Positions 35,550 through 52,332 of a DNA stretch of 64,000 bases are shown piece after piece; the stretch's first letter is position 1; each line of letters starts with the position of its first letter. The stretch covers positions 11,824,001 through 11,888,000 of the forward strand of contig NZ_CP069396.1 of the NCBI RefSeq assembly GCF_016887565.1, read 5' to 3'. The position numbers were made by a program, and so were the translations under genes. The stretch is from Archangium violaceum. GTDB lineage: Bacteria; Myxococcota; Myxococcia; Myxococcales; Myxococcaceae. Under the pieces are notes generated by a model. The model was not told where the DNA came from. It searched no databases and saw nothing but the letters and a program-made list of their open reading frames with translations.

Positions 35550-35698
35550 GGGAATCCCCTTTTTTAATGGAGTCTTTCCATTACCCGTGAATCAACGTCC
35601 CGCCACCCGACATGCCCGTGAGTCTTTGGCACGGTGAGAACTGAACAGAGACGCGGGTGCCCGCAGCAACCCATGTATGCGAGCTACCCTCACCCCGA

Positions 35699-35719
35699 CC
35701 CTCTCCCGGAGGGAGAGGG
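35699..35719. repeat. REP-like hairpin
   Basis: CCCTCTCCC-GGA-GGGAGAGGG forms a perfect 9-base-pair stem with a three-base loop. It belongs to the CACCCCGACCCTCTCCC dyad (from about 35690) that is common between genes in high-GC bacteria. It lies between pgi and the receiver gene. Confidence 0.5.
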
Positions 35720-35723
35720 AGGG

Positions 35724-38290: not shown

Positions 38291-38318
38291 GGCCGCTGCT
38301 TTCGCCTCGCGGAGGAGA

Positions 38319-39548
38319 TCAGGCCTCGGGACGAAGAAGCACTGGGAAGGAGCGCATGCCACGGAAGGTCGTATTGTCCGACCACATCGGCCGCTCCGGT
38401 GCTACTCGCAGGTGGGGGAAGCGACGAAGCACGGTGCCAATGACGATCTGCCCCTCCAATCGCGCCAGCGGTGCTCCCGCGCAGTAGTGGATGCCCATGC
38501 CGAAGGCGAGGTGTCGATTGTTCTCTCGACGCACGTCCAGCCGGTCTGGCTCCGAGAACTGCTCCGGGTCACGGTTGGCCGAGCCCATCATCAGGAAGAT
38601 GCGCTCCCCCATGGCGATGCGCTGACCGCCCACCTCCATGTCCTCCAGGGCCAGTCGGGACATCCGCTGCACCGGGCTGTCGTATCGCAACAGCTCGTCG
38701 ATGGCCGAGGCGGGCAGTTCCACCGAGTCGCGAAGCAGCCACAGTTGCTCGGGCTGGTGCAGCAGCGCGTGGAGCCCGTTGCCAATGAGGCTGGTGGTCG
38801 TCTCATGCCCGGCGAAGAGCAGCAACAAGCAGGTGGAGAGAATCTCCTGCTCATTGAGGATCCGCCCCTCTTCCTCGGCGGCGAGCAAGGTGCTGATCAG
38901 ATCGTTCCCCGGGTCCTTGCGCCGCCGGGCCAGCACGTCCTCCAGGTAGCGCTCCAGCTCGCGGAAATCGGCGGCCGCCTGCTCCACCTGCGCCAACGCC
39001 ACGCGGCCCGAGGCAAGCGCGGCGAGCATGTCCGACCAGGCCTTGAGTCGCTCTCCATCTTCTGGGGGGAGACCGAGCATCTCGCCGATGACGAGCACCG
39101 GGAGCACGTTGGCCAGATCGCGCATGACATCCATGCGTCCGGAGTCCTCGACCCGGTCCAGGAGCTGGTCCGTGAGCGACTGGATGCGCGGGCGCAGGGA
39201 CTCCACCATCCGTGACGTGAAGGCCTTGTTGACGAGCGATCGCAGCCGCGTGTGATCGGGCGGATCGTTCATCAACATCCAGGAGGAGACATAGCGGATC
39301 ATCGGCCCCATCAGCGCCTGCATCCGCCTCATCGTCTCCGGCATCGCGTGCGGCGTGACCCGCTCGGCACGTTTGCAGGAGAGGCGCGGGTCCCGGAAGC
39401 CCGCGAGCACATCCTGGTAGCGAGTGAGGAGCCAGGCGTTCCAGGATGCGTGGAAGTACACCGGGGCCCGCGCCCTCAGTTGCGCGTAGGCGGGGAAGGG
39501 ATTTTCCCGGAAGTCGGGCCCATCCAGGCCGTAGGGGTCATGCTGCAT
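38319..39548 (-). CDS. Cytochrome P450
   Basis: 409 residues, soluble bacterial class. The heme-binding segment is F-G-M-G-I-H-Y-C-A-G with the thiolate Cys at 356; the I-helix oxygen motif is A-G-H-E-T-T near 245; the K-helix E-L-L-R is present near 283. GAGGAA lies 6-7 bases before the ATG at 39548, which is preferred to an ATG 20 codons upstream. Divergent from the peptide operon at 39746 with 197 bases between; no ferredoxin gene is near. Its substrate could be the product of that operon, but this rests on position only. Confidence 0.92.
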   Translation of the reverse strand: MQHDPYGLDGPDFRENPFPAYAQLRARAPVYFHASWNAWLLTRYQDVLAGFRDPRLSCKRAERVTPHAMPETMRRMQALMGPMIRYVSSWMLMNDPPDHTRLRSLVNKAFTSRMVESLRPRIQSLTDQLLDRVEDSGRMDVMRDLANVLPVLVIGEMLGLPPEDGERLKAWSDMLAALASGRVALAQVEQAAADFRELERYLEDVLARRRKDPGNDLISTLLAAEEEGRILNEQEILSTCLLLLFAGHETTTSLIGNGLHALLHQPEQLWLLRDSVELPASAIDELLRYDSPVQRMSRLALEDMEVGGQRIAMGERIFLMMGSANRDPEQFSEPDRLDVRRENNRHLAFGMGIHYCAGAPLARLEGQIVIGTVLRRFPHLRVAPERPMWSDNTTFRGMRSFPVLLRPEA

Positions 39549-39745
39549 GGGGAATTCCTCGTGTGTCAGGGGGTCGAATGCCAATCGGGCTGCTTGCACC
39601 ATGCCCACGGCGGAACGGCTCCCCTATGCGCTGGTTCACCCTCCAAGTGTAAAATGCATCACTGAAGAGGGAAGCCGAGCCCCCTATACAGGTTCCGCCC
39701 ACATCGTTCCGTGGGTCAAGCCACACCTCGCGCGGAGAAGACCTC
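39549..39745. promoter_or_regulatory. Divergent promoter region between P450 and peptide operon
   Basis: This 197-base region holds TAAAAT at 39650-39655, a fair -10 match on the + strand preceded by TG (extended -10), which would start transcription about 85 bases before the peptide gene. No clear -35 was found. A short dyad (CCCAC / GTGGG) lies near 39700-39720. The ribosome site of the peptide gene (GGAGAAG) is 39735-39741. Confidence 0.35.
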
Positions 39746-39964
39746 ATGACCCAGCAAGCCTCGCAGCAGCTCGACATCTCCATCTCCATCACGGACAGCC
39801 AGACCCTGCAGGTGAAGTTCTCCCGGCCCGTGACGGACATGTTCAAGGCCTCCGTGGTCAATGGTGAGGTCCCCGTCGATGTGGTGGCGGCCGCGCTCCA
39901 CTTCTACCTGGCGCTGAAGAAGGATGCGCCGTCCGCCAGCAAGCCCGTCATGGCCCCCTGGTAG
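39746..39964 (+). CDS. 72-residue peptide ending in Trp, candidate RiPP precursor
   Basis: A short gene with a ribosome site GGAGAAG a few bases before the ATG. No signal peptide, no Cys. Residues 8-28 are strand-like (L-D-I-S-I-S-I-T-D-S-Q-T-L-Q-V-K-F-S), 43-58 form a likely helix (P-V-D-V-V-A-A-A-L-H-F-Y-L-A-L-K), and the C terminus is a flexible S-A-S-K-P-V-M-A-P-W with Trp as the last and only Trp. A structured leader with a short disordered core at the C terminus is the usual shape of a RiPP precursor. It is followed after 49 bases by the FAD enzyme and the PatF-like gene. An accessory subunit of the FAD enzyme is the main alternative. Confidence 0.6.
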   Translation: MTQQASQQLDISISITDSQTLQVKFSRPVTDMFKASVVNGEVPVDVVAAALHFYLALKKDAPSASKPVMAPW

Positions 39965-40013
39965 GTCGAACCCCATCATCCACGCTGCCTTCCCGGAACG
40001 GAGGCCTTCACAG

Positions 40014-41660
40014 ATGGCCATGTCGAAGCATGAGGGAAACACTCCCGAACTCATCGATGTCGCGGTCGTCGGGGGTGGAATCTCCGGCGTGTATTCGGCC
40101 TGGCGCCTGGCCCGGGACGTGTTGCATCCAGAGCTCGGTGAACGGCTGACGGTCCACCTCTTCGAGAGCAGCGGCCGGATTGGAGGGCGGCTGGAAACGG
40201 TCGCCCTGGGTGACTCGGGACAGCGCGTCGATGTAGGGGCAATGCGCTTCTTCCCGGGCCAGCGACTGGTGTCCTCCCTCTTCCAGGCGCTCGAGCTGCC
40301 CACGGTACCCTTTCCCAGTGAGCAGCTCCGCCGATTGTACCTGAGGGGCGTGCTCCTCACGCCGGCCGAGCTGGCCCGATACCCAGACAGGCTCCCCTAC
40401 CGGCTCGTGGGTGAGGAGCGCGGGAAGTCCCCCTTCGTGTTGCTGCAGTACGTCATCCAGCTCATCCTCCCCAATGCCTTCGAGCTCTCACCCAGTCAGT
40501 GGGAGGAAGCGAAGAAGAGCTGCACGGTGAATGGTGTGCCCCTCTGGCAGCTCGGGTTCTGGAACCTGCTGGACCAGATGGTGAGCGGCGAGGCCTATGA
40601 CTACCTGCTCAACACCATCGGTATCGACTCGCTCCTCAGCAACTGGAACGCCGGGGAGGCGTTGCAATTGCTGTGCTTCGTGCTCAAGCAATTCCAGGAG
40701 GCCGAGGCCAAGGGGACTCCCCCCACCCTGGCTCCCGGCGAGGGATTCCAGAGCCTCGCCCTCACACTGGCCGAACGGTTCGTCAGCAGCAAAAAGACGA
40801 AGCTCCTGCTACGGCACAGGCTCGTCTCGGTGGAGCGGGTGCGTCCCTCACGAGAACACCATGGCCTGGAGTTGCGTTTCGAGCTCCGCGACGAGGCGGA
40901 CCGGCCCATCGGCGAGAAGCGGGTGCACGCCTCCCACGTCATCCTGGCGATGCCAAAGCGAGCCCTGGAGCTGGTCGGCCAGAAGAGCCCGGAGCTCGAC
41001 ACCCCCGAGGTGCGCACGCTGCTCGCCACGGTGAAATCCGAACCGGCCTACAAGCTCTACATGTCCTACGGGCAGTCCTGGTGGAACACGCTTGGGTTCG
41101 GGCCGGGCAATTCCGTGACGGACGTCCCACTCCGGCAGGTCTTCTACGGAATGGCGGTGGGTGACTCCAATGCCCCGGTGCTCCTGGCCAGCTACACCGA
41201 CATGGACGGGGTCTCCTTCTGGAAGGGCCTGGCTCCGCTGGCGACCAACCGCATGCAGCAGTTCCTCGAGCAGCAGCGGGGCATGGAACATGAAACCTTC
41301 GGCTCCCCCGGCCTGGCCGAGACCCTGACACCCCTGGCGAACGTCGTGCAGCGCCATCTCGGGGAGATGCATGGAATGAAGTACGTGCCGCCTCCGCGTG
41401 GTCTCGTCTATCGCGACTGGACGGAGGAGCCTTATGGAGGTGGCTGGCACTCCTGGAATCCCTATGTGGAGGTCGCGGGGGTCATCGGCCGGATGCGGCG
41501 CCCGGTGCCGGACCTGAACCTGTATGTCTGCGGTGAGGCGTACTCCAGCATGCAAGGCTGGGTGGAGGGGGCGCTGCGCTCGGCCGAGCTGGTGCTCCAG
41601 AACGGCCTGCGGCTGCATCGTCCCGACTGGCTCCCCGCCGACGTGGACCTGGGCGTGTAA
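40014..41660 (+). CDS. FAD-dependent amine oxidase-family enzyme
   Basis: 548 residues. The dinucleotide-binding motif is V-V-G-G-G-I-S-G at 18-25, followed by the L-F-E-S-S-G-R-I-G-G-R-L motif near 53-64 and G-A-M-R-F-F-P; the C-terminal FAD segment is L-Y-V-C-G-E-A-Y-S-S-M-Q-G-W-V-E-G-A near 515. These are the marks of flavin monoamine oxidases and L-amino-acid oxidases. GGAGG lies 9 bases before the ATG at 40014. The next gene begins 2 bases after its stop, so the two are translationally linked. In this setting it may oxidise a modified peptide, an amino-acid side chain or an amine; this is not resolved. Confidence 0.8.
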   Translation: MAMSKHEGNTPELIDVAVVGGGISGVYSAWRLARDVLHPELGERLTVHLFESSGRIGGRLETVALGDSGQRVDVGAMRFFPGQRLVSSLFQALELPTVPFPSEQLRRLYLRGVLLTPAELARYPDRLPYRLVGEERGKSPFVLLQYVIQLILPNAFELSPSQWEEAKKSCTVNGVPLWQLGFWNLLDQMVSGEAYDYLLNTIGIDSLLSNWNAGEALQLLCFVLKQFQEAEAKGTPPTLAPGEGFQSLALTLAERFVSSKKTKLLLRHRLVSVERVRPSREHHGLELRFELRDEADRPIGEKRVHASHVILAMPKRALELVGQKSPELDTPEVRTLLATVKSEPAYKLYMSYGQSWWNTLGFGPGNSVTDVPLRQVFYGMAVGDSNAPVLLASYTDMDGVSFWKGLAPLATNRMQQFLEQQRGMEHETFGSPGLAETLTPLANVVQRHLGEMHGMKYVPPPRGLVYRDWTEEPYGGGWHSWNPYVEVAGVIGRMRRPVPDLNLYVCGEAYSSMQGWVEGALRSAELVLQNGLRLHRPDWLPADVDLGV

Positions 41661-41662
41661 CC

Positions 41663-42532
41663 ATGAGTTGGGAGTACCACGCACTCAAACGGCGGTTGGG
41701 GCTTGGGACGGAGCCGCTCCTCGGTCTCTTCGAGGAGTTCTGCCTGGATGCCTTCGCGGCCATGCGGGACATGGAGTGGTCTTGCAAGGTATGCCCGGAC
41801 GTCGTCCTGACCGACCGCTTCTTCTGGCTCGGTGCACCCACGGACTCCGCGCTCTACGCCCCTGGCCTGCGCCTGCTGCTGGATGCGCTCCGATTCGAGC
41901 CGACCGGTCTCCCCGGGGGCCGGGCCCGCTTCGAGGCATTGGTAGCCGAGGAGACCGAACGCCTGCTGGTGGCCTACGCCGGGCCGGATCCGCGCTCCGG
42001 CCGAGCGGCGCAGCTCAAGGTGTACCTGACCCTCAAGGACTGCTCGGCGGCCCGCTACCACGAGCTACTGCGGCCCGTGCTCCCCGCGCTGCCAGCCGAA
42101 CCTCCACCGGAAGAAGCCACACTGCTGTTCTGCTATGCCCTCGAGGCCGGGGGGTCGGCACGTCCCCGCCTGTACGTGCAGTTCCGCGAGGAGGCCTACC
42201 AGAAGCCGCGCATCGCCCGGTACATGGAGGAGCGCGTGGGCACGCGAGGCCTGGCGCTGGCCCGGGGCCATCGTGCCTCGGGCGTCGCCCTCAAGGAGGG
42301 GGCCACGGAGATGCTCGGGCTGGGGCTGAGGCCCACCGGAGCCGAGGGCCCCCACCCCTGCCAGGTCATCTCTCCCGTGGCGCTGCCGCTGTTGGAGGCC
42401 GCGCGGCGGGTACCATTGCTGGCCGAGCGGCTCGACCGGGTGAGCTGGGTCACCCTCGCCAACGACGAGGATTCCCTGCGGTGCCAGACGCATCAGCGTG
42501 AGATGAACGTCTATGTGAAGCTGCTGCGCTGA
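41663..42532 (+). CDS. PatF/LynF-like (ABBA-fold) peptide prenyltransferase candidate
   Basis: 289 residues, the size of cyanobactin prenyltransferases. By eye it lines up with PatF/LynF: L-F-E-E-F and then M-E-W-S-C-K-V near 37-43 (family L-F-E...E-S-S-C-K-x-E), D-R-F-F (family x-R-F), strand Q-L-K-V-Y-L-T-L-K-D near 117-126, strand L-L-F-C-Y-A-L-E-A-G-G-S-A-R-P-R-L-Y-V-Q near 155, and a last helix-strand L-E-A-A-R-R...V-S-W-V-T-L-A-N-D. Such enzymes attach a dimethylallyl or related group to Tyr, Ser/Thr, Trp or a terminus of a RiPP. Assignment is from recalled sequence, not a search; it converges with the kinase at 42545. Confidence 0.6.
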   Translation: MSWEYHALKRRLGLGTEPLLGLFEEFCLDAFAAMRDMEWSCKVCPDVVLTDRFFWLGAPTDSALYAPGLRLLLDALRFEPTGLPGGRARFEALVAEETERLLVAYAGPDPRSGRAAQLKVYLTLKDCSAARYHELLRPVLPALPAEPPPEEATLLFCYALEAGGSARPRLYVQFREEAYQKPRIARYMEERVGTRGLALARGHRASGVALKEGATEMLGLGLRPTGAEGPHPCQVISPVALPLLEAARRVPLLAERLDRVSWVTLANDEDSLRCQTHQREMNVYVKLLR

Positions 42533-42544
42533 GCCGCCGCGCTC

Positions 42545-45211
42545 TCAAGGAGAGGGGAAGGGACGCGCCAGCCGGAAGGAGAGCGACACGTCGCGGTACA
42601 CTGCCGGCGGGCTGTTGCGGTAGGCAGAGCGGCACAACTCCTCGGAGGCATGGAAGGGAGCACCCTTCACGATGCGATGGATGCCTCCGGCGCCAGGGCC
42701 GGAGATGTCCTCCCCGTTGGACAGCACCGGCCTGCCACGCACGACCCGGGGACCCTCCACCTGGTAGGCATCCTGGCACCATTGGTGGACGTTGCCCGCC
42801 ATGCCGCGCACCCCGTAGGGGCTCTCGTCGATGGGATAGCGGTCCACGGTCACCTTCGTGGCACGGCCTCCAGAGAGGCTGTGGCGCATATGGCAGAAGG
42901 TAGGGTCCAGGAAGTCGCCCCAGGGGAAGTGACGGCCATCGGTGCCGCGGGCTGATTTCTCGTACTCCATCTCCGCGCATAGTCGCCAGGGCACGCCATC
43001 CTTCTCCGCGCGCCAGCGCGCGTAGGCATCGGCCGAGTGCCAGTTGATCATCGTCACGGGCCAAAACCGCCGCGTGTCGGAGGCGTCGATGAAGAAGCCC
43101 CCCTCCGGACTCCGCTCGATGAAGGGTTGGGCCTGCTCCGTGCGCGACTTGCCCTCCTCCCACGCGGGTTGTGGTGGCACGTGGCGCTCCGCGTCCTCCC
43201 GCTGGCCCCGGGCAACGAGGTCATTGAGGAAGTCCAGGTACTCCACCAGGGTCACCGGGAAGCGCTTCATCACGAAACCGTCCAGCCACAATCTCCGGAG
43301 GGGCAGGCTGTTCTGGGCCTTGGGATCGCCCCCGCTCCAGAACCAGCCGGCTGGCACGTAACAGTCGTTCTCGAGCAATTCCTCTGGGCGTGGCAGGTAG
43401 ATGGGCTGGGGCGCCGACTCGCCCTCAGGCACACCATCCCAGTGCCTCAAACGATCGATGTGGATGGGGTACTTCACCTCGACGCGGCCTGGGTAATGGA
43501 TGCGCAGCAGGTAACTGCCCATGGGCAGTTCCAGGCGGTGGAGGGGCGTGACCCCCAGGCGCCGCCCCTCTGCGGGTATCAGGTGCCGGTCGCGCGATTC
43601 GTAGGGGTGCAGCGTTACCTCCGCGCCGGGAGGATTCGTCACCAGGCTGACCGCGCCCGGGCCCAGGAGGTAGGCGGAATGCTCGCCGCGATCATGGACG
43701 CGCAGGAGCAGTTCGCTCTGGAGCTGGGCCTGCTCGTCGCGGAGGCGCTCGGCCTGCTCGTGGAGCCGCCGGTAATGCTGTGCGAGCAGAGCATGAGCCT
43801 CCCGCAGGTCGGGAGCCTGGGTGAGCGCGGCCTGGAGGAGTTGGAGGGCCTGATGCTGCTTCAATTCCGCTTCACGCCGCAGGCGCGCGGCCTCGTCCTG
43901 GAGGTCCCAGCCGGGAATCTTGTCCTCCACAGGCGCGAAGGGAGGAATCTTCTGAAGCAGGTGGTTGGCCGCGACCTGCCGCTCGGCGGCCATCGCGCGC
44001 AATGCCTCCATCTCCGGTAGAAGCATCCGAACCTGGGCAACGAGCGCCAGTGCCTCCTCTTGCCGCCGCTCGCCATCCAGCCAGGCCCGGATGTCCTCCG
44101 CGAGGGCACCCGCGTCCGGGTAGCGCTGGGACTGCTCCCAGGCCATGGCCCGCAGGCAGATGCGCCGCAGTGCCTCGGGGAGAGGCGGATGGCTGGCGGG
44201 AGCACCAGGCCCGTGACCAGGGAGCAGTTCCTCCACACGCCGACCGTGAGGAGGACGATTGCCAGTGAGGACGTGGAGCAAGGTGGCCCCGAGCGCATAG
44301 ACATCGGTGGTGGGGTCCAACAGGTCCTGCCGCCCCGCAGCCTGCTCCGGGGCCATGTAACCCGGGGTTCCACTGGCGCTCCCCGGCAGGGTGAACATCT
44401 GCGACTCCCCGGACAACAGCAAGCCACCTCCCTCCGCGGCGCTCACGCCCTCCTCCAGCGGCGCTCTCTCCTGCAGCACCTTGGCGAGCCCCCAGTCGAG
44501 GATGAGCGTCTCACCGTACTCACCCACCATCAGGTTGAGGGGTTTGATGTCACGGTGCAGCACGCCCCGCGAATGGGCGAAAGCGACTCCCTCGCACACG
44601 CGCAGGAACGCGTCGATGAGCCGGCGCAGAGTCCAACCCGAGGCCGCCGGCCGCCACTCCGGCATGCCTTGTGGCTCGTGCGTACGCGAGGCCTGGTGTA
44701 CCTCCTGGAGGACGTCCAGCAGGGTGCGGCCCTGGACCTCCTTCATCGTGAAGTAGAGCCGCCCGTCGGGATGTTTCCCCAGGTCATACACCGGGACGAT
44801 GCTGGGGTGCTGGAGCTGGGCGGTGACCTGGGCCTCGGCGATGAAGCGGGCCAGCATCGATTCATCGTGCTGGGTCTCGGGCTTGACGAGCTTCATCGCC
44901 GTCCTGCGACGGAGGGTACGATCGAAGATGCGCCGGACTTCGCCCATGCCCCCTCTACCAATGAGCCCCATGTCCTCGAAGCGACTGGTGACATCCCGCA
45001 CCTCGATGGGGGCGGGAGCGGGGGCGGGACGGCGGCTGACCTCCTCGGGGGACGAAGAGGGACTCATCATGCTGCCGGTGGCCATCCGCGAGTCGAACTC
45101 CTCCGTGGTGAAACCGGAGGCGGCACTCCCGCGCAGCATCTCCGACAGCTCCTGCCCCGCCTCCGGAGGCAGTTGGAATTTCGAGATGAAGCCGTCGATG
45201 ATGTCTTTCAA
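42545..45211 (-). CDS. Ser/Thr kinase fused to a sulfatase-modifying-factor (FGE-like) domain
   Basis: 888 residues. Kinase domain residues ~78-375: G-R-G-G-M-G-E-V near 85, A-M-K-L-V near 105, L-H-R-D-I-K-P-L-N near 220 and L-I-L-D-W-G-L-A-K (DWG in place of DFG, common in this kinase group). A coiled linker follows (L-R-R-E-A-E-L-K-Q, R-D-E-Q-A-Q-L-Q). A PEGA-like segment precedes an FGE-sulfatase domain (~630-885: W-F-W-S-G-G-D, P-V-T-L-V-E-Y, G-M-A-G-N-V-H-Q-W-C-Q-D, S-L-S-F-R-L-A-R). The two active-site Cys of true FGE are not in place, so it is likely a binding or sensor module. Confidence 0.85.
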   Translation of the reverse strand: MKDIIDGFISKFQLPPEAGQELSEMLRGSAASGFTTEEFDSRMATGSMMSPSSSPEEVSRRPAPAPAPIEVRDVTSRFEDMGLIGRGGMGEVRRIFDRTLRRRTAMKLVKPETQHDESMLARFIAEAQVTAQLQHPSIVPVYDLGKHPDGRLYFTMKEVQGRTLLDVLQEVHQASRTHEPQGMPEWRPAASGWTLRRLIDAFLRVCEGVAFAHSRGVLHRDIKPLNLMVGEYGETLILDWGLAKVLQERAPLEEGVSAAEGGGLLLSGESQMFTLPGSASGTPGYMAPEQAAGRQDLLDPTTDVYALGATLLHVLTGNRPPHGRRVEELLPGHGPGAPASHPPLPEALRRICLRAMAWEQSQRYPDAGALAEDIRAWLDGERRQEEALALVAQVRMLLPEMEALRAMAAERQVAANHLLQKIPPFAPVEDKIPGWDLQDEAARLRREAELKQHQALQLLQAALTQAPDLREAHALLAQHYRRLHEQAERLRDEQAQLQSELLLRVHDRGEHSAYLLGPGAVSLVTNPPGAEVTLHPYESRDRHLIPAEGRRLGVTPLHRLELPMGSYLLRIHYPGRVEVKYPIHIDRLRHWDGVPEGESAPQPIYLPRPEELLENDCYVPAGWFWSGGDPKAQNSLPLRRLWLDGFVMKRFPVTLVEYLDFLNDLVARGQREDAERHVPPQPAWEEGKSRTEQAQPFIERSPEGGFFIDASDTRRFWPVTMINWHSADAYARWRAEKDGVPWRLCAEMEYEKSARGTDGRHFPWGDFLDPTFCHMRHSLSGGRATKVTVDRYPIDESPYGVRGMAGNVHQWCQDAYQVEGPRVVRGRPVLSNGEDISGPGAGGIHRIVKGAPFHASEELCRSAYRNSPPAVYRDVSLSFRLARPFPSP

Positions 45212-45333
45212 GTCGACTCCTTTCCGGCGCTCGCCGATCCCTCACGAAGGGGATGCGGAATGAAAGCGTTCCGCATTCCGTGCCGTCAACACGCCAGCAG
45301 GAGCCGCGAGCCCCCAACGGGGAGGGGGCGCCG

Positions 45334-46071
45334 TCAGAAGCCTCGCATCCAGCCTCCGTCGATCGCGATGGATTGGCCCGTGATGTAGCCCGCCTGCTCC
45401 GACGCCAGGAACGTCACCAGCGCTCCCAGCTCCTCCGGCTTGCCCAGACGGCGCGCCGGGATCGCCGAGGTGATCTTGTCCTCGGGAACACCCAGTTCCC
45501 TGAGGCGCTCCGTCGCGTGGTAGCCCGGCTGCACCCCGTTGATGGTGACCCCGTGCTCGGCCACCTCGTTACTGACGGTCTTCACCAGCCCCATCAACCC
45601 CGCTCGCAAGCCGTTGGAGATCGTCAGCTGCGACATCGCCTCGCGCGCCGCCACCGACGTCACCAGGATGATGCGCCCCCAGTGTCTCTCCTTCATCCCC
45701 GGCAGCGCCGCCTGCAGCCCCTCCACCACGCTCATCCACAGGCTCTGGAAGCCCTCCTGCCACTGCTCAGCTGAGATCTTCTCGATGCCCCCCTTCGGCG
45801 GCCCGCCCGTGTTCACCACGAGCACGTCCACTCCACCCAGCTCCGTCACCACCTTCTCCACCAGCCCCTTCGTGGCGCCCGGCTTCGTCGTGTCCGCCGC
45901 CACCCCCAGCGCGGCGCCCATCCGCTTCGCCGCCTCCCGGATGCGCTCCTCGCTGCGCGAGCAGATGGCCACCCTCGCCCCTTCCTTCACCAGCTGCTCA
46001 GCGATGGCGTACCCCAGTCCGCTGGAGGCCCCCATCACCAGTGCCCGCCGACCCTTCAAGCCGAAATCCAT
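45334..46071 (-). CDS. SDR oxidoreductase, last gene of the kynurenine operon
   Basis: 245 residues. NAD(P) motif G-A-S-S-G-L-G near 15 and N-T-G-G near 87 are clear, as is the C-terminal G-Y-I-T-G-Q-S-I-A-I-D-G-G. The catalytic Tyr-x-x-x-Lys is replaced by Ser-Asn-Gly-Leu-Arg at the expected distance from the active Ser (V-T-S). A similar S-N-x-x-R occurs in a small SDR subgroup, so the enzyme may still work. AAGGAG lies 7 bases upstream of the ATG, within the 3' end of the monooxygenase gene (74 bases shared). Role in the pathway unknown. Confidence 0.8.
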   Translation of the reverse strand: MDFGLKGRRALVMGASSGLGYAIAEQLVKEGARVAICSRSEERIREAAKRMGAALGVAADTTKPGATKGLVEKVVTELGGVDVLVVNTGGPPKGGIEKISAEQWQEGFQSLWMSVVEGLQAALPGMKERHWGRIILVTSVAAREAMSQLTISNGLRAGLMGLVKTVSNEVAEHGVTINGVQPGYHATERLRELGVPEDKITSAIPARRLGKPEELGALVTFLASEQAGYITGQSIAIDGGWMRGF

Positions 46072-47446
46072 CCGAATGCTCCTTCACGAAAGGCACCAGC
46101 CGCTCGTGGATGAGCGCGCGGGCCCGGTCCAGGTCCACATCCTCCGCACGGGTGAGGCCCTCGCTCAGCTCGGCGACGATTCCGCCCGCGATGGCTCCCA
46201 CCTCGTACGCCAGACGGTACGGCACCCGGCTGAAGCTCACCAGCGTGTAACGGCTCAGGAACTCGCCCGGGAAGGCGTTGAGCAACACCTTCTCCACCGC
46301 CTTCTCCTGCAGGAAGCGCGGGTCCGCCGTCCTGTCCCGCATCTCCACGAAGTTCTCCACCGCCATGTCCGCGATGGCGTCCGCGTTCGGCTTGCGCAAC
46401 TGGAAGAAGTCCTCGAACGCCTCCTCCCACCGCGCGTGCCGCCCGAGGCACTCGTCCAACACCACGCAGTCCTCGAAGCCGCAGTTCATCCCCTGCCCGA
46501 AGAACGGCACGATGGCGTGCGCCGCGTCTCCCAGCAGCAGCGTCCTCCCCCCCACGTGCCACGGCGCGCTCTTCACCGTCACCATCGTCCCCGTGGGGTG
46601 GTGGAAGAAGTCGTGCTCCAGGTCCGGAATCAACGCCAGCGCGTCCGGGAAGTGCTCCTCGAAGAAGGTCACCACGCGCTCGGGCGAGTCCAATGACGCG
46701 AAGCTCACCGGCCCCTGGAAGGGCAGGAAGAGCGTGCAGGTGAAGCTGCCATCCTCGTTCGGCAGGGCAATCAACATGTACGAGCCCCGGGGCCAGATGT
46801 GCAGCGCGTGCTTCTCCATCCGGAAGGCGCCACCCGGACCCGCGGGAATCGTCAGCTCCTTGTAGCCATGGCTCAGGTGCTCCTGCTCCGCGACATGGCC
46901 CGGCCGCGACACCAGCTCGCGCCGCACCGCCGAGCCCGCGCCATCCGTGCCGAACACCACCGGGGAGCGCACCTCGCGCACGGCGCCACTCTCCTCGTCC
47001 AACACCTCGAGCAGGCCCCGCTCGGCATCCAGGTGCTGCACGCGCTGCTTGAACTGGATGCGCACCCGCCCCGTGGCCTCCGCATGCGTCATCAGGCTCT
47101 TGTTGAGCCACGCGCGCGAGAGGCTGTTGATGTGCTGGGATTCGTCCTTCCCGTACGCCTGGAAGGCCAGCGCCCCCGTGGCGGAATGAATCATCCGTCC
47201 GCGCATGGGGATGGCGTGGCTCAGCGCCTCCTCCTCCAACCCCACCTGCCGCAGGGCGTGCAGCCCCCGGGTGGAGATGGCGAGGTTGATGGAGCGGCCC
47301 GCGCCAATGGCCTCGCGCCGCATGTCCGGGCGCCGCTCCAGGACCTCCACCTGGAAGCCGCGCCTCGCCAGGTACATCGAGAGGAGCGAGCCCACCAGGC
47401 CCGCTCCCACCACCGTCACGCGCTCAGTCCGCTGAATCTCTTGCAT
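45998..47446 (-). CDS. kmo: Kynurenine 3-monooxygenase
   Basis: 482 residues. It hydroxylates kynurenine to 3-hydroxykynurenine with FAD, NADPH and oxygen. FAD motif G-A-G-L-V-G-S near 13, G-x-G-R-S-I-N-L-A-I-S-T-R-G near 48 (the signature of this enzyme) and the G-D-A-A-H-A-I-V-P-F-F-G-Q-G-M-N-C-G-F-E-D segment (FAD ribityl contact) near 305. The N terminus begins inside the 3' end of kynureninase (23-base overlap) and its own 3' end overlaps the SDR by 74 bases. Confidence 0.93.
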   Translation of the reverse strand: MQEIQRTERVTVVGAGLVGSLLSMYLARRGFQVEVLERRPDMRREAIGAGRSINLAISTRGLHALRQVGLEEEALSHAIPMRGRMIHSATGALAFQAYGKDESQHINSLSRAWLNKSLMTHAEATGRVRIQFKQRVQHLDAERGLLEVLDEESGAVREVRSPVVFGTDGAGSAVRRELVSRPGHVAEQEHLSHGYKELTIPAGPGGAFRMEKHALHIWPRGSYMLIALPNEDGSFTCTLFLPFQGPVSFASLDSPERVVTFFEEHFPDALALIPDLEHDFFHHPTGTMVTVKSAPWHVGGRTLLLGDAAHAIVPFFGQGMNCGFEDCVVLDECLGRHARWEEAFEDFFQLRKPNADAIADMAVENFVEMRDRTADPRFLQEKAVEKVLLNAFPGEFLSRYTLVSFSRVPYRLAYEVGAIAGGIVAELSEGLTRAEDVDLDRARALIHERLVPFVKEHSDGFRLEGSAGTGDGGLQRTGVRHR

Positions 47447-48716
47447 GCCGTTCGAGTACCCCCACGAACCTGTATACGTCATGGAAGCTGACATAGAAGG
47501 GAGCCGGTGCGGCACGGATGATGTCCGGTGAACGGAAGTCGCAGAAAACGCCCGCGCTGTTCAGTTTCTCCAACATTCTCCGCGGCTCCTTGCTGAAGCG
47601 CAGGGAGAGCTGCACCCCGCGCTGCTTGGGGTCTCTCGGGGTGAGGACGGTCACGAAGCCGGGCGGGAGCCGTTCCAGCAGGAACTCCAGGTAGCCGGTG
47701 AGCAGCTCGCTCTTGTGGCGCAGGGCCGGCATCGTCGCGCGGTCGAAGAGCTCCATGGACGCACGCAGCGCGGAGAGCTGGAGGATGGGCGAGTTGGACA
47801 GCAGCCAGCCCTCGGCACCCGGAGACGGGTCGAAGTCCGGGCCCATCTGGAAGCGCGTCTGCTTGTTGTGGCCCCACCAGCCCTCGAAACGGGGAAGGCC
47901 CTTGTCACGGGCGTGGCGCTCGTGGACGAAGACACCACCGAGCGTGCCCGGACCTCCGTTGAGGTACTTGTACGAGCACCACACGGCGAAGTCCGGCCCG
48001 TCGTCGTGCAGCGAGAGCCGCAGGTTGCCGGCCCCGTGCGCCAGGTCGAAGCCCACCTGGCAGCCCTGCTTGTGCGCGGCCCGGGTGATGGCCGCCATGT
48101 CGAACGCCTGGCCGGTGAGGTAGTTCACGTTGCCCAGCAGCACCAGGGCGATCTCCTTCCCGTGCCGCTCGATCGTCTCCAGGATGTCCTCGAGGCGCAG
48201 CGTCTCTTCGCCCGGGCGCGGCGAGAGGCGGAGGATGTCGCGCTCCGGGTCGTATCCATGGAAGCGCACCTGCGAGGCCACCGCGTACTGGTCCGACGGG
48301 AACGCACCCGCCTCCATGAGGATCTTCGAGCGCTCGCGCGTGGGCCGGTAGAAGGACACCATCATCAGGTGCAGGTTCACCGTGAGGGTGTTCATCACCA
48401 CCACTTCGATGGGGTGGGCGCCCACCAGCCGAGCCGTCTGCTCGGTGAGCGTCTCGTGGTAGGGCATCCACGGGCGAGTACCGGTGAAGTGGCCCTCCAC
48501 GCCCAGCTTCGCCCAGTCCTCCAGCGCCTCCAGCACATAGGTCTTCGCCTTGCGCGGCTGGAGCCCGAGCGAGTTGCCCACCAGGTACATGGCGGGCTCA
48601 CCACTCTTGTGGTCGGGGAAGATGAACTCCTCTCGCAAGTGGCGCAGCGGATCCTCCGAATCCATCCGCCGGGCGAACTCCTCACTGGCCTCGAAACGCA
48701 CCGCCTGACTGCCCAT
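47424..48716 (-). CDS. kynU: Kynureninase
   Basis: 430 residues. A PLP enzyme that cleaves 3-hydroxykynurenine to 3-hydroxyanthranilate and alanine. The PLP-binding Lys is K250 in W-C-S-Y-K-Y-L-N-G-G-P-G-T. P-S-D-Q-Y-A near 130 and F-D-L-A-H-G-A-G-N (Asp/His contacts) near 220 fit the family. Its ATG follows directly the stop of the decarboxylase gene (TAG then ATG). Confidence 0.95.
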   Translation of the reverse strand: MGSQAVRFEASEEFARRMDSEDPLRHLREEFIFPDHKSGEPAMYLVGNSLGLQPRKAKTYVLEALEDWAKLGVEGHFTGTRPWMPYHETLTEQTARLVGAHPIEVVVMNTLTVNLHLMMVSFYRPTRERSKILMEAGAFPSDQYAVASQVRFHGYDPERDILRLSPRPGEETLRLEDILETIERHGKEIALVLLGNVNYLTGQAFDMAAITRAAHKQGCQVGFDLAHGAGNLRLSLHDDGPDFAVWCSYKYLNGGPGTLGGVFVHERHARDKGLPRFEGWWGHNKQTRFQMGPDFDPSPGAEGWLLSNSPILQLSALRASMELFDRATMPALRHKSELLTGYLEFLLERLPPGFVTVLTPRDPKQRGVQLSLRFSKEPRRMLEKLNSAGVFCDFRSPDIIRAAPAPFYVSFHDVYRFVGVLERHARDSAD

Positions 48717-49730
48717 CTACTTGAACTCCTCGGCCGAGCGCCCGAGCCACTCGAGCGCGTTACGCCACAACAAACGTTCGCGCGTGGGGGCATCGAAGTC
48801 CACGAGAGACTCCACCAGCTCCCCCGGCCGATCCTCTCCCAGGGGGAAGGGATAGTCACTGCCCAGGGCCACCTTCTCCGGGCCGAACAGCCGGACGATG
48901 AAGCGCAGCATGTCCGGGTCGTGCACCAGCGAGTCCACCCAGAAGCGGCCCAGGTACTCGCGCGGTGAAACCGGGTTGTCCACGGCCACCAGGTCCGGTC
49001 GTACCTGGAAGCCGTGCTCGATGCGGCCGAAGGTACCCGGGAAGGCGCCGCCGCCGTGCGCGAAGGCCAGCCGCAGCTTCGGCAGCTTCTCCAGCGTGCC
49101 GGAGAAGAGGAGCGAGCAGAGGGCCAGGGCCACCTCCGCGGGCATGCCCACGAGCCAGGGCATCCAGTACTTCTTCATCCGCGCCTCGCCCAGCATGTCC
49201 CAGGGGTGGACGAAGATGGCGGCGCCCAGCTCGGCCGCGGCCTCGAAGAAGGGGAACAGCTCCGGCTCCCCCAGGTTGAGGCCGTTGACGTGCGAGCCCA
49301 CCTGCACACCCGCCATCCCCAGCTCGCGCATGCAGCGCTCCAGCTCGCGCACGGCGAGCGCCGGGGACTGCAGGGGCACCGTGCCCAGCCCCACGAAGCG
49401 CTTCGGGTGCGCCTTCACCACCGAGGCCAGCTGGTCGTTGAGGAAGCGCGACACGTCCAGCCCGTGCTCCGGCTTCGCCCAGTAGCTGAACATCACCGGC
49501 ACGGTGGACAGCACCTGCACGGTGACTCCGCACGCATCGCACTCCTCGATGCGCTTCACCGGATCCCAACAGTTGCTCTCGACTTCGCGGAAGAACTTCC
49601 CGTCATCGCGCACCATGCGCGCCCGGCACGGCACGTGGTGGTCCAGCGTCATGAAGCCGCCGTACCCGTAGCGCTCGGCGAAGCGTGGCAGCTCGGGCGG
49701 CAGCAGGTGGGTGTGGATGTCGATCTTCAC
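48717..49730 (-). CDS. nbaD: 2-Amino-3-carboxymuconate-6-semialdehyde decarboxylase (ACMSD)
   Basis: 337 residues from a GTG. It removes CO2 from ACMS to give 2-aminomuconic semialdehyde. Metal ligands H6-x-H8 (I-D-I-H-T-H), His in F-V-H-P-W-D near 178, His in F-A-H-G-G-G near 228, and Asp in G-S-D-Y-P-F-P near 294. The GTG overlaps the stop of the dioxygenase gene by four bases (GTGA), which decides the start. The decarboxylase commits the pathway to oxidation rather than quinolinate/NAD synthesis. Confidence 0.93.
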   Translation of the reverse strand: MKIDIHTHLLPPELPRFAERYGYGGFMTLDHHVPCRARMVRDDGKFFREVESNCWDPVKRIEECDACGVTVQVLSTVPVMFSYWAKPEHGLDVSRFLNDQLASVVKAHPKRFVGLGTVPLQSPALAVRELERCMRELGMAGVQVGSHVNGLNLGEPELFPFFEAAAELGAAIFVHPWDMLGEARMKKYWMPWLVGMPAEVALALCSLLFSGTLEKLPKLRLAFAHGGGAFPGTFGRIEHGFQVRPDLVAVDNPVSPREYLGRFWVDSLVHDPDMLRFIVRLFGPEKVALGSDYPFPLGEDRPGELVESLVDFDAPTRERLLWRNALEWLGRSAEEFK

Positions 49731-50245
49731 GACGCGCGCTTCTCCCGCGTCATCTGGAAGCCGCACTTCTTGCAGGTGCAGTGCTCGGGATTGCCATAGA
49801 AGCGCTCGAACACGGGTGGCAGTTGCGTGACGATGTTGGTGACCTGCAGGTACTCGTCATACAGCTTCGTGTCGCACCGGGGGCAGAACCACGCGAACCC
49901 GTCCAGCTCTCCCGGCTTCCGCTTGCGCTCGATGACCAGGCCCACCGTCCCCGCCGGCCGCTGCGGCGAGTGCGGCACCTTGGAGGGCAGCAGGAAGATC
50001 TCCCCCTGTCGGATGGGGATGTCCTGGGGCTTGCCGTCCTCGATGACGCGCAGGTTGATGTCTCCCTCCACCTGGTAGAAGAACTCCTCGCTCTCGTCGA
50101 TGTGGAAGTCCGTGCGCGAGTTGGGCCCGCCCACCACCATGACGATGAACTCCCGGTCCTCCCACACCAGCTGGTTGCCCACGGGCGGCTTCAGCAGGTG
50201 GCGGTGCTCGTCGATCCACTTCTTGAAGTCGAGGGGTCGCAACAT
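49727..50245 (-). CDS. nbaC: 3-Hydroxyanthranilate 3,4-dioxygenase
   Basis: 172 residues. It opens the ring of 3-hydroxyanthranilate to ACMS. Iron ligands His48, Glu54 and His92, with substrate Arg44 and Arg96, each three residues earlier than in the Cupriavidus enzyme. The extra rubredoxin-like iron site is present (Cys121, Cys124, Cys158, Cys161). GGAG 6 bases before the ATG supports start 50245 over a TTG four codons earlier. Coupled to RidA upstream (1-base gap) and the decarboxylase downstream. Confidence 0.95.
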   Translation of the reverse strand: MLRPLDFKKWIDEHRHLLKPPVGNQLVWEDREFIVMVVGGPNSRTDFHIDESEEFFYQVEGDINLRVIEDGKPQDIPIRQGEIFLLPSKVPHSPQRPAGTVGLVIERKRKPGELDGFAWFCPRCDTKLYDEYLQVTNIVTQLPPVFERFYGNPEHCTCKKCGFQMTREKRAS

Positions 50246-50246
50246 C

Positions 50247-50678
50247 TCAGTCTCCAATCGTGGCCACGCACTTCAGCTCGATGGCGATGGGGGTGGGCAG
50301 CGCGGTGATTCCGAGTGTCGTCCGGCACGGCGGCGTGGGCACGTCCTTGAAGTACTCGGCCCACAGCCGGTTGTAGGTGGGGAAATCCTTCTTCATGTCC
50401 GTGAGGTACACCGTCACGTCCACCAGCCTGTCCCAGGAGGAGCCTGCCTCCTCCAGGATGTAGCGCACGTTGCGGAACACCGAGTGGCACTGCGTCTCGA
50501 TGTCGTACGAGACGATGTTGCCCGCCGCGTCCAGCTCGACGCCGGGGATCTTCTTGCTCCCGCGCTCGCGCGGCCCCACGCCGGAGAGGAAGAGCAGGTT
50601 GCCCACGCGCCGGGCATGGGGATAGAGGCCCACCGGCTCGGGGGCCCGATTGGAATCGACTCGCTCGGAATGGCTCAT
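50247..50678 (-). CDS. nbaF: RidA-family 2-aminomuconate deaminase
   Basis: 143 residues, RidA/YjgF fold: G-N-L-L-F-L-S-G-V-G-P near 27, then R-N-V-R-Y-I-L-E-E-A-G near 72 and the P-C-R-T-T-L-G segment whose Arg binds the carboxylate in RidA proteins (near 122). In the nba-type tryptophan pathway the 2-aminomuconate deaminase is a RidA-like protein of this size, and the position in the operon fits that role. ATG overlaps the stop of the dehydrogenase gene (ATGA). Confidence 0.8.
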   Translation of the reverse strand: MSHSERVDSNRAPEPVGLYPHARRVGNLLFLSGVGPRERGSKKIPGVELDAAGNIVSYDIETQCHSVFRNVRYILEEAGSSWDRLVDVTVYLTDMKKDFPTYNRLWAEYFKDVPTPPCRTTLGITALPTPIAIELKCVATIGD

Positions 50679-52117
50679 AGCTTCACGCACACGTTCTTGG
50701 GCTCGGTGAAGAAGCGCAGCGCGTCCCAACCGCCCTCGCGCCCCACGCCCGAGTCCTTCACCCCGCCGAACGGCGTGCGCAGGTCGCGCAGCATCCAGCA
50801 GTTCACCCAGACGATGCCGCTCTCCAGCTTCGCGGCGAAGCGGTGCGCCCGGCTCAGGTCCCGCGTCCACACGGTCGCCGCCAGCCCGTAGCGCGTGCTG
50901 TTCGCCCAGGCCAGCACCTCCTCTTCCTTCTCGAAGGGGGTGAGCGTGGCCACCGGGCCGAAGATCTCCTCCTGGTTGGTACGGCAGGCGTGGCCCAGGC
51001 CTTCGATGAGCGTGGGCTCCACGAACCAGCCGTTGCGGCAGCGCCCCGGCACCTCCACACGCTTGCCTCCGGTGAGGACGCGGCCCCCCTCCTGACGGGC
51101 CACGTCGATGCAGCCCATCACCTTCTCGAAGTGCTGCGAGGACACCAGCGCGCCCTGGTCCGTCGACGGCTCCAGCGGATCGCCCACCTTCAACGCCCGC
51201 GTGCGCGCCACCAGCGCCTCCTTGAAGCGCTCATAGAGAGGGGCCTGCACGAAGATGCGCGAGCCGCAGAGACAGATCTGCCCCTGATTGGAGAAGGACG
51301 AGCGCACCGTGGTGGCCAGCGCCTCGTCGAAGTCACAGTCGGCGAAGATGACGTTGGGGTTCTTGCCCCCCATCTCCAGCGAGAGCTTCTTGAAGAGCGG
51401 CGCGGCGGTGCGGGCAATCTCGGCGCCCGTACGCGTGCTGCCGGTAAAGGAGATGGCGCTGATCTCCGGATGACTGCTCATCGCGGCGCCCACCTTGGCG
51501 CCGTAGCCGTGGACGATGTTGAGCACGCCCGGCGGCAGCCCCACCTCGCGGCACACCTGCGCGAGCAGGTACGCGGTCATCGGCGTCACCTCGGAGGGCT
51601 TGGCCACCACGCAGTTGCCCATGGCCAGCGCGGGAGCGATCTTCCAGGTGAGCAGATAGAGCGGCAGGTTCCACGGCGAGATGCACCCCACGACGCCCAG
51701 CGGCGTGCGCAGCGTGTAGTTGAGCGCCAGGCCGTCCGTGGTGTGGGCCTCGGTGGAGAACTGCGTCACCGCGTCCGCGAAGAACTCGAAGTTGAGGACG
51801 CTGCGAGGGATGTCCACCGTGGAGGCCAGCTTCAGCGGCTTGCCGGTGTCGATGGCCTCGGCGCGGGCGAAGGCCTCGGTGCGGGCGCGAATCGTCTCCG
51901 CGATGCGGCGCAGCATGCGAGCCCGCTCCACCGCCGGAGTCGCGGCCCAGGCCGGGAAGGCGCTCCGGGCCGCCTCCACCGCACGTTGGATGTCCGTCCC
52001 GTCCGAGTCCGGCACCCGGGTGGAAGGTTCCCCGGTCGCGGGGTCGGGCTTGTCGAACCAGACCTGGGAGCTCGGGGACACCAGCTCTCCGCCGATGTAA
52101 TTGAGGACCTTCTCCAC
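50675..52117 (-). CDS. nbaE: 2-Aminomuconic semialdehyde dehydrogenase, first gene of the kynurenine operon
   Basis: 480 residues from a GTG with GAGGAGG about 8 bases upstream. NAD-dependent aldehyde dehydrogenase: Glu in L-E-M-G-G-K-N-P near 247, catalytic Cys in G-Q-I-C-L-C near 281, and E-I-F-G-P-V near 378. The I-C-L-C variant and the operon context support 2-aminomuconic semialdehyde over other aldehydes. The operon order on the minus strand is dehydrogenase, deaminase, dioxygenase, decarboxylase, kynureninase, monooxygenase, SDR. Confidence 0.9.
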   Translation of the reverse strand: MEKVLNYIGGELVSPSSQVWFDKPDPATGEPSTRVPDSDGTDIQRAVEAARSAFPAWAATPAVERARMLRRIAETIRARTEAFARAEAIDTGKPLKLASTVDIPRSVLNFEFFADAVTQFSTEAHTTDGLALNYTLRTPLGVVGCISPWNLPLYLLTWKIAPALAMGNCVVAKPSEVTPMTAYLLAQVCREVGLPPGVLNIVHGYGAKVGAAMSSHPEISAISFTGSTRTGAEIARTAAPLFKKLSLEMGGKNPNVIFADCDFDEALATTVRSSFSNQGQICLCGSRIFVQAPLYERFKEALVARTRALKVGDPLEPSTDQGALVSSQHFEKVMGCIDVARQEGGRVLTGGKRVEVPGRCRNGWFVEPTLIEGLGHACRTNQEEIFGPVATLTPFEKEEEVLAWANSTRYGLAATVWTRDLSRAHRFAAKLESGIVWVNCWMLRDLRTPFGGVKDSGVGREGGWDALRFFTEPKNVCVKL

Positions 52118-52332
52118 GCGCGAATCCTCCTCTGGCAACCCGGGCCTCGAATACCACGGGCCCCTACAGCGGGCCCCCAACGAGAGGGGCCGAAGCGTTC
52201 ACTTGTCGAGCACGCCAGGTCATGACGCGTCGCGCGAATGCACTGACAATCGGGGTTTCCCCTGTCTTACTTTCTCATATTATTAAACCCACCTATCCTG
52301 CTGGGCGCTTCTTACCCCCCAGGAGGTTCCCC
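52118..52332. promoter_or_regulatory. Divergent promoter region of kynurenine operon and secreted hydrolase
   Basis: An AT-rich patch (52262-52300) contains TATTAT at 52278-52283, a candidate -10 on the + strand; the reverse reading TAATAATAT can serve the operon. GGGGTTTCCCC (52252-52262) is a small dyad beside it and could bind a regulator. No regulator gene is adjacent and no -35 is convincing. Confidence 0.35.

Follow-up and report, generated by a model that had tools for sequence, protein, structure and literature searches.

A short-peptide, amine oxidase and PatF-like prenyltransferase operon in Archangium violaceum: a candidate RiPP-type cluster

Introduction

Does a myxobacterium prenylate a ribosomal peptide with a distant relative of the cyanobactin prenyltransferases? 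This question is raised by a three-gene operon of Archangium violaceum, located in a stretch of 64,000 nucleotides of contig NZ_CP069396.1, which was analysed as a whole and is hereafter called the window. Most of the known peptide prenyltransferases of the PatF type are cyanobacterial. An earlier inspection of the bare DNA, the sequence-only reading, had attributed the three genes to a short peptide, an FAD-dependent amine oxidase-like enzyme and a PatF-like prenyltransferase. A deep, apparently intact myxobacterial outgroup with different partner enzymes would widen the PatF family and could serve as a new biocatalyst for lipidating peptides. The cluster could also be the first in which peptide prenylation is combined with an enzyme of the L-amino-acid-oxidase type.

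Gene organisation of the operon

The three genes lie head to tail on the plus strand and code for a peptide of 72 residues, considered as a candidate RiPP precursor (39746..39964), a predicted FAD-dependent amine oxidase of the L-amino-acid-oxidase type with 548 residues (40014..41660), and a putative PatF-like ABBA prenyltransferase of 289 residues, named here protein 3 (41663..42532). The gaps amount to 49 bases between the peptide and oxidase genes and to 2 bases between the oxidase gene and the third gene; the coordinates and spacings given by the sequence-only reading were all correct. Clear Shine-Dalgarno sequences precede the first two genes. GGAGAAG at 39734..39740 on the plus strand bears out the earlier statement that the peptide has its own ribosome site, and GGAGG at 40000-40004 is followed by the oxidase ATG at 40014, with the stop at 41660. 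A longer oxidase ORF starting at 39924 was discarded as an over-extension. Spaced by 2 bases, genes 2 and 3 are translationally coupled and belong to the same operon as the peptide gene. An RNA hairpin between the peptide and oxidase genes was not significant (z -1.07), the promoter and terminator scan yielded no promoter and a single terminator-like site at chance level, and PADLOC reported nothing relevant.

Coding quality was assessed with a codon model trained on the other genes of the window. The peptide gene scores 0.736 bits/codon, compared with 0.503 for the oxidase gene and 0.434 for the third gene, and ranks first among the 151 ORFs of 55-95 residues, with the other frames over the same stretch reaching at most 0.145 bits/codon. 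Because of this top rank and of the low scores of the other frames, the 72-residue peptide is a real coding gene, and not an accident of GC-rich DNA.

The 72-residue peptide

The first 58 or so residues of the peptide look ordered, judging from the sequence, and are followed by a short tail rich in Pro, Ala and Ser (...APSASKPVMAPW). The peptide is devoid of Cys, and its sole Trp is the last residue, W72 (codon 39959-39961). Searches of 142 genomes of the same order, of plasmids and of the neighbourhoods of 14 oxidase relatives detected no homologue, and leader and core are therefore indistinguishable by conservation. The Pfam and NCBIfam precursor models gave no match, and a CcmE match (E 0.16) was taken as chance. 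The motif LAELSEE characterises the leader of PatE-type precursors, and nothing resembling it was seen by eye in the peptide.

A remote PatF-like prenyltransferase

Automatic annotation misses protein 3 since none of the curated families reaches its cut-off, and for the same reason similar clusters may hide in genomes. The best, insignificant, Pfam match is DUF5838/PF19156 (11.1 bits versus a cut-off of 28.8, E 0.25), which can be equated with the PatF family because its matches to PatF-type loci of cyanobacteria lie between 1e-77 and 1e-105. HMMER with PatF profiles gave a sub-threshold match limited to the N-terminal part, and the sole phmmer match in the PDB, an enoyl-CoA hydratase, was dismissed as chance. 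Profile-profile comparison was performed with a PatF-family profile that did not include the two solved members diverging most, Fl3F and FjoF. Using hhalign against the 27-sequence family alignment, protein 3 was matched with a probability of 73.9% and a score of 41.7 over 184 columns, whereas 200 shuffles gave at most 23.6 and the other window proteins at most 19.4; a repeat with one more divergent member gave 40.9 versus 21.8. With the first profiles, built from 4 and 20 sequences, the signal was weak (P about 0.005) and was nearly equalled by one shuffle in 60; a clear separation from shuffles was obtained with the wider profile alone.

With regard to the fold, an AlphaFold2 model computed from the single sequence has low confidence (pLDDT 44.8, pTM 0.43), and its agreement with known structures is informative because no homologues entered it. 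The top 17 Foldseek rows obtained with this model are cyanobactin-prenyltransferase chains, KgpF being the best (E 2.3e-5, probability 1.00), and DMATS enzymes come next. VIA-align returned ABBA/DMATS-type prenyltransferases in 50 of 50 rows, with DciF at Z 11.6. Still with the single-sequence model, the PatF group surpasses the indole/DMATS group (Z 11.6 versus 8.4; E 2e-5 versus 2e-2). A second model, built with PatF rows (pLDDT 59.6), superposes 262 residues on DciF (Z 19.3, 3.5 A), a result which is partly circular as fold evidence. At the fold level, and on models of low to moderate confidence, protein 3 is predicted to be a remote prenyltransferase of the PatF/LynF (ABBA) type. As judged by profiles, it is a probable remote homologue of PF19156, placed outside the curated family and called a deep outgroup rather than a filed member because it falls below the cut-off. 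The earlier assignment to PatF-like enzymes is thereby upheld by the ABBA fold, the profile-profile homology and the residues described below, and fails at the PF19156 cut-off. The sequence-only reading had also named a different fold as grounds for abandoning its proposal; the search returned the ABBA/PatF fold, and the proposal is not refuted in this respect.

The L-F-E...S-C-K motif pointed out in the sequence-only reading is present as LFEEFCLDAFAAMRDMEWSCKV (residues 22-43) and aligns with PatF, PagF and OcyF. PatF itself has no demonstrable activity, and this loss was traced to the equivalents of DMATS Lys187 and Asp178, which are Met136 and His125 in PatF, but Lys/Arg and Asp in active relatives (PMC3668578). 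In the same study, PatF Arg66 was equated with the phosphate-binding Arg100, and PatF Gly127 was found to be replaced by Arg in other members (PMC3668578). In protein 3, the residues aligned with PatF R66, H125, G127 and M136 are R52, D109, R111 and K119, encoded within 41816..42019 on the plus strand (codons 41816-41818, 41987-41989, 41993-41995 and 42017-42019, respectively). The corresponding segments read GPDPR and QLKVYL, versus GIDLR and SLKMHI in PatF. Moreover, R279 and N282 occupy near-invariant C-terminal columns of the family. Since the four DMAPP-site residues are kept, protein 3 looks catalytically intact and like a working prenyltransferase.

The flavin amine oxidase

The product of gene 2, already described as an FAD amine oxidase-like enzyme, is indeed recognised as a flavin amine oxidase by PF01593 (E 1.8e-31, 110.3 bits versus a cut-off of 19.8). 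Its closest solved relative is 8jt7, an 'Amine oxidoreductase' (E 4.8e-79, residues 7-542); another one is 7eii, which carries the annotation L-Lys oxidase, and the C-terminal half also matches the Trp oxidase VioA. The resemblance to the group comprising 8jt7, the ancestral LAAO and L-Lys oxidase (7eii) extends to the full-length alignment and to the FAD and substrate-site motifs, with retention of the dinucleotide-binding motif, GRIGGR, GxMR and a C-terminal GEAYSxxQGWVEGAL. By the curated cut-off and the full-length alignment, gene 2 codes for a flavoenzyme of the L-amino-acid-oxidase type, with a predicted activity. The GxMR arginine of L-amino-acid oxidases binds the substrate carboxylate, and its conservation makes a residue inside a peptide a less likely substrate than a free amino acid or a residue that has been released. 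The enzyme may take a residue or fragment set free by proteolysis, use a free amino acid, or work apart from the other gene products.

Relatives of the oxidase in other myxobacteria and on plasmids have unrelated neighbours. Neither a PatF-like gene nor a similar short peptide was linked to any of the 14 relatives sampled. A recurrent neighbour of amine oxidase genes of this family, in myxobacteria and on staphylococcal plasmids, is a gene for a second FAD oxidoreductase (loci L012, 7427-10408; L013, 9818-12898; L073; L077).

A strain-specific block

The operon belongs to a block of about 7.0 kb (38294..45319), comprising a P450 gene, the trio and a kinase-FGE gene, which has no syntenic match in five of five genomes of the genus and whose flanks are kept in all five. 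The conserved genes of the left flank code for an alpha/beta hydrolase and phosphoglucose isomerase, and those of the right flank for an SDR and kynurenine-pathway enzymes. The nearest genome carries about 80 bp in place of the block, and the others harbour unrelated genes. The GC content of the block (0.667) is close to that of its flanks (0.673 and 0.681), and composition is therefore silent as to gain here versus loss elsewhere.

Divergent from the peptide gene is a cytochrome P450 gene on the minus strand (38319..39548; PF00067, E 3e-33), with an ATG at 39548 and a possible upstream GTG at 39608; the closest PDB match of its product is PksS (E 8e-91). The 197-bp divergent intergenic region (39549..39745) presumably contains both promoters; scanning it revealed no sigma-70 consensus. 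The P450 is likely a cluster member and the best candidate for a fourth gene. Both the P450 and the strain-specific block are additions to the sequence-only reading. On the other side, the trio is followed by a convergent gene on the minus strand (42545..45211), coding for a Ser/Thr kinase fused to an FGE-sulfatase domain (PF00069, PF03781), which lies inside the block and does not clearly belong to the pathway. The block contains neither a protease nor a transporter gene. In agreement with the earlier statement, no PatA/PatG-type protease is encoded in the trio or its 10 neighbouring genes (35.7-52.2 kb), and no LanM/LanB-type gene occurs among the neighbours over the same range.

The site between the alpha/beta hydrolase and SDR genes is hypervariable, its content differing in each genome of the genus or being nearly absent. 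A dispersed GC-rich palindromic repeat, CCCTCACCCCGACCCTCTCCCGGAGGGAGAGGGAGGG, is found at 35685-35723 and has many near-identical copies across the genus, one of which lies in the nearest relative's empty site of 80 bp (L064, G045). The genus-conserved kynurenine-pathway row occupies 45998-52180 on the minus strand and comprises kynurenine 3-monooxygenase-like, kynureninase, amidohydrolase (ACMSD-like), 3-hydroxyanthranilate dioxygenase and aldehyde dehydrogenase genes.

Comparison with known systems

The cyanobactin prenyltransferases (PatF, LynF, TruF, KgpF, LimF, PagF, PirF and DciF; PF19156/DUF5838) have in common with protein 3 the predicted ABBA fold, the length, the LFE...SCK motif, G-x-D-x-R ... 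L-K, the C-terminal R..N and the DMAPP-site residues. Protein 3 differs from them by its 17-23% identity in the alignment, its score under the family cut-off and its myxobacterial host. The cluster, for its part, lacks the PatA/PatG proteases and the PatE-type precursor of the cyanobactin pathway, and has an amine oxidase as partner. Within the range covered (35.7-52.2 kb), a cyanobactin pathway was rejected on the absence of PatA/PatG-type protease genes, and a prenylated lanthipeptide pathway on the absence of a lanthionine synthetase gene and of Cys in the peptide. MppC, the ABBA prenyltransferase of a Moorena lanthipeptide, is leader-dependent and prenylates a single Trp of the uncleaved precursor (PMC12715784). 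Like protein 3, it is an ABBA enzyme outside the cyanobactin pathway, but it is accompanied by a LanM macrocyclase and a Nif11-like leader, whereas LanM, Cys and any recognised leader family are absent here.

Two other systems provide a precedent for modification at a C-terminal Trp. PalQ/ComX-type enzymes prenylate the C-terminal Trp of a ribosomal peptide (PMC10853753); PalQ is related to isoprene synthases and belongs to another protein family than protein 3. Crocagin, a RiPP of the myxobacterium Chondromyces crocatus, has a very short C-terminal core ending in a modified Trp (PMC10070186), but its pathway involves CgnB/C/E, with no prenyltransferase or amine oxidase, and its precursor has 21 residues.

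Proposed pathway and alternative explanations

With moderate confidence, we favour a small strain-specific cluster of RiPP type, where the C-terminal tail of the 72-residue peptide would be modified by protein 3. This proposal stems from the PatF-like fold, the profile score of 41.7 and the four DMAPP-site residues, from the coding peptide gene heading the operon and the P450 sharing the strain-specific block, and from the ribosomal peptide substrates, in some cases still bearing their leader, that have been reported for enzymes of the PatF type (PMC12715784). A short precursor-like gene beside modifying enzymes, a general feature of RiPP clusters, is present and comes first in the operon. Against the proposal, the peptide has no homologue and hence no conserved core, the LAAO-type GxMR suits a free amino acid, the block lacks a protease and a transporter, protein 3 scores under the PF19156 cut-off, and the trio is known from one genome. 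In the proposed RiPP-type pathway, the 72-residue product would serve as precursor; about residues 1-58 would form its leader, and the tail APSASKPVMAPW would receive the modifications. Protein 3 would transfer a C5 or C10 prenyl group from the diphosphate onto the tail, most likely onto the Trp72 indole, and it would do so with the leader still attached, as in MppC, given the lack of macrocyclase and leader protease genes at this locus. The two weakest steps are oxidation of the tail, which the P450 may carry out, and deamination of a residue or small fragment, freed by a protease encoded elsewhere, which would fall to the amine oxidase. The product would probably be a prenylated, oxidised peptide. 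More speculatively, and in a form that we think rather unlikely to hold in full, the cluster may represent a new myxobacterial RiPP class, built on a linear precursor with a leader. A PatF-like enzyme from outside the known family would prenylate the C-terminal Trp of this precursor, and the LAAO-type flavoenzyme and the P450 would then turn that end into an oxidised (keto or imine) prenyl-indole product, without macrocyclase or dedicated protease.

The main rival, to which we grant a clear minority share of credence, is a small-molecule pathway, where the oxidase makes the imine or keto acid of free Trp or Tyr, the prenyltransferase prenylates the ring and the P450 hydroxylates, the 72-residue protein being accessory or regulatory, and not a substrate. 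The full-length alignment of the oxidase with free-amino-acid oxidases, the match of its C-terminal half to VioA and the lack of a leader protease and a transporter all suit such a pathway, and ABBA/DMATS enzymes of common fold acting on free Trp do exist (CymD, IptA, PriB). However, protein 3 is closer to PatF than to the indole/DMATS group by both Z and E values, and a short gene that looks well expressed by its codons heads the operon. We regard as improbable that the genes are chance neighbours, with the oxidase a free-standing maker of peroxide and ammonia, and the prenyltransferase having its partners elsewhere or being a relic. The locus is a hotspot with contents differing in each genome of the genus, and the oxidase relatives have unrelated neighbours elsewhere, but the coupling of genes 2 and 3 within one operon with the peptide gene, the intact reading frames with coding-like codon use and the kept active-site residues argue otherwise. 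Very improbable, finally, is a resemblance to PatF produced by the modelling in a protein that is no prenyltransferase: the pLDDT of 44.8, the absence of matches over curated cut-offs and the weak separation of the narrower PatF profiles from shuffles would fit it, whereas fold, profile and active-site residues concur, the fold being supported by a model into which no homologues had gone.

Distribution

In the Myxococcota genomes searched (195 for protein 3 and 142 for the peptide), each of the two occurs only once. In the 195 genomes, the matches to protein 3 at E 0.001-0.01 were short and partial, and none was meaningful; plasmids contained no relative. Pattern scans of genome and viral contigs, which distant relatives could escape, revealed none either, and PF19156 had zero matches in 20 relatives, own genome included. 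The sequence-only reading had suggested homologous trios in other myxobacteria as a further line of enquiry; the search found none in the genomes covered. In the open-access literature, no paper on this enzyme combination was found, subscription journals being outside the search.

A separate observation concerns the one other Myxococcota gene picked up by the PatF-family profile (L072, 7252-8049; genome G177), which codes for 265 residues in a low-GC genome of 1.1 Mb. It adjoins a cation-efflux gene, with no oxidase nearby, and its product appears, by eye, to retain the DMAPP-site residues D, R and K.
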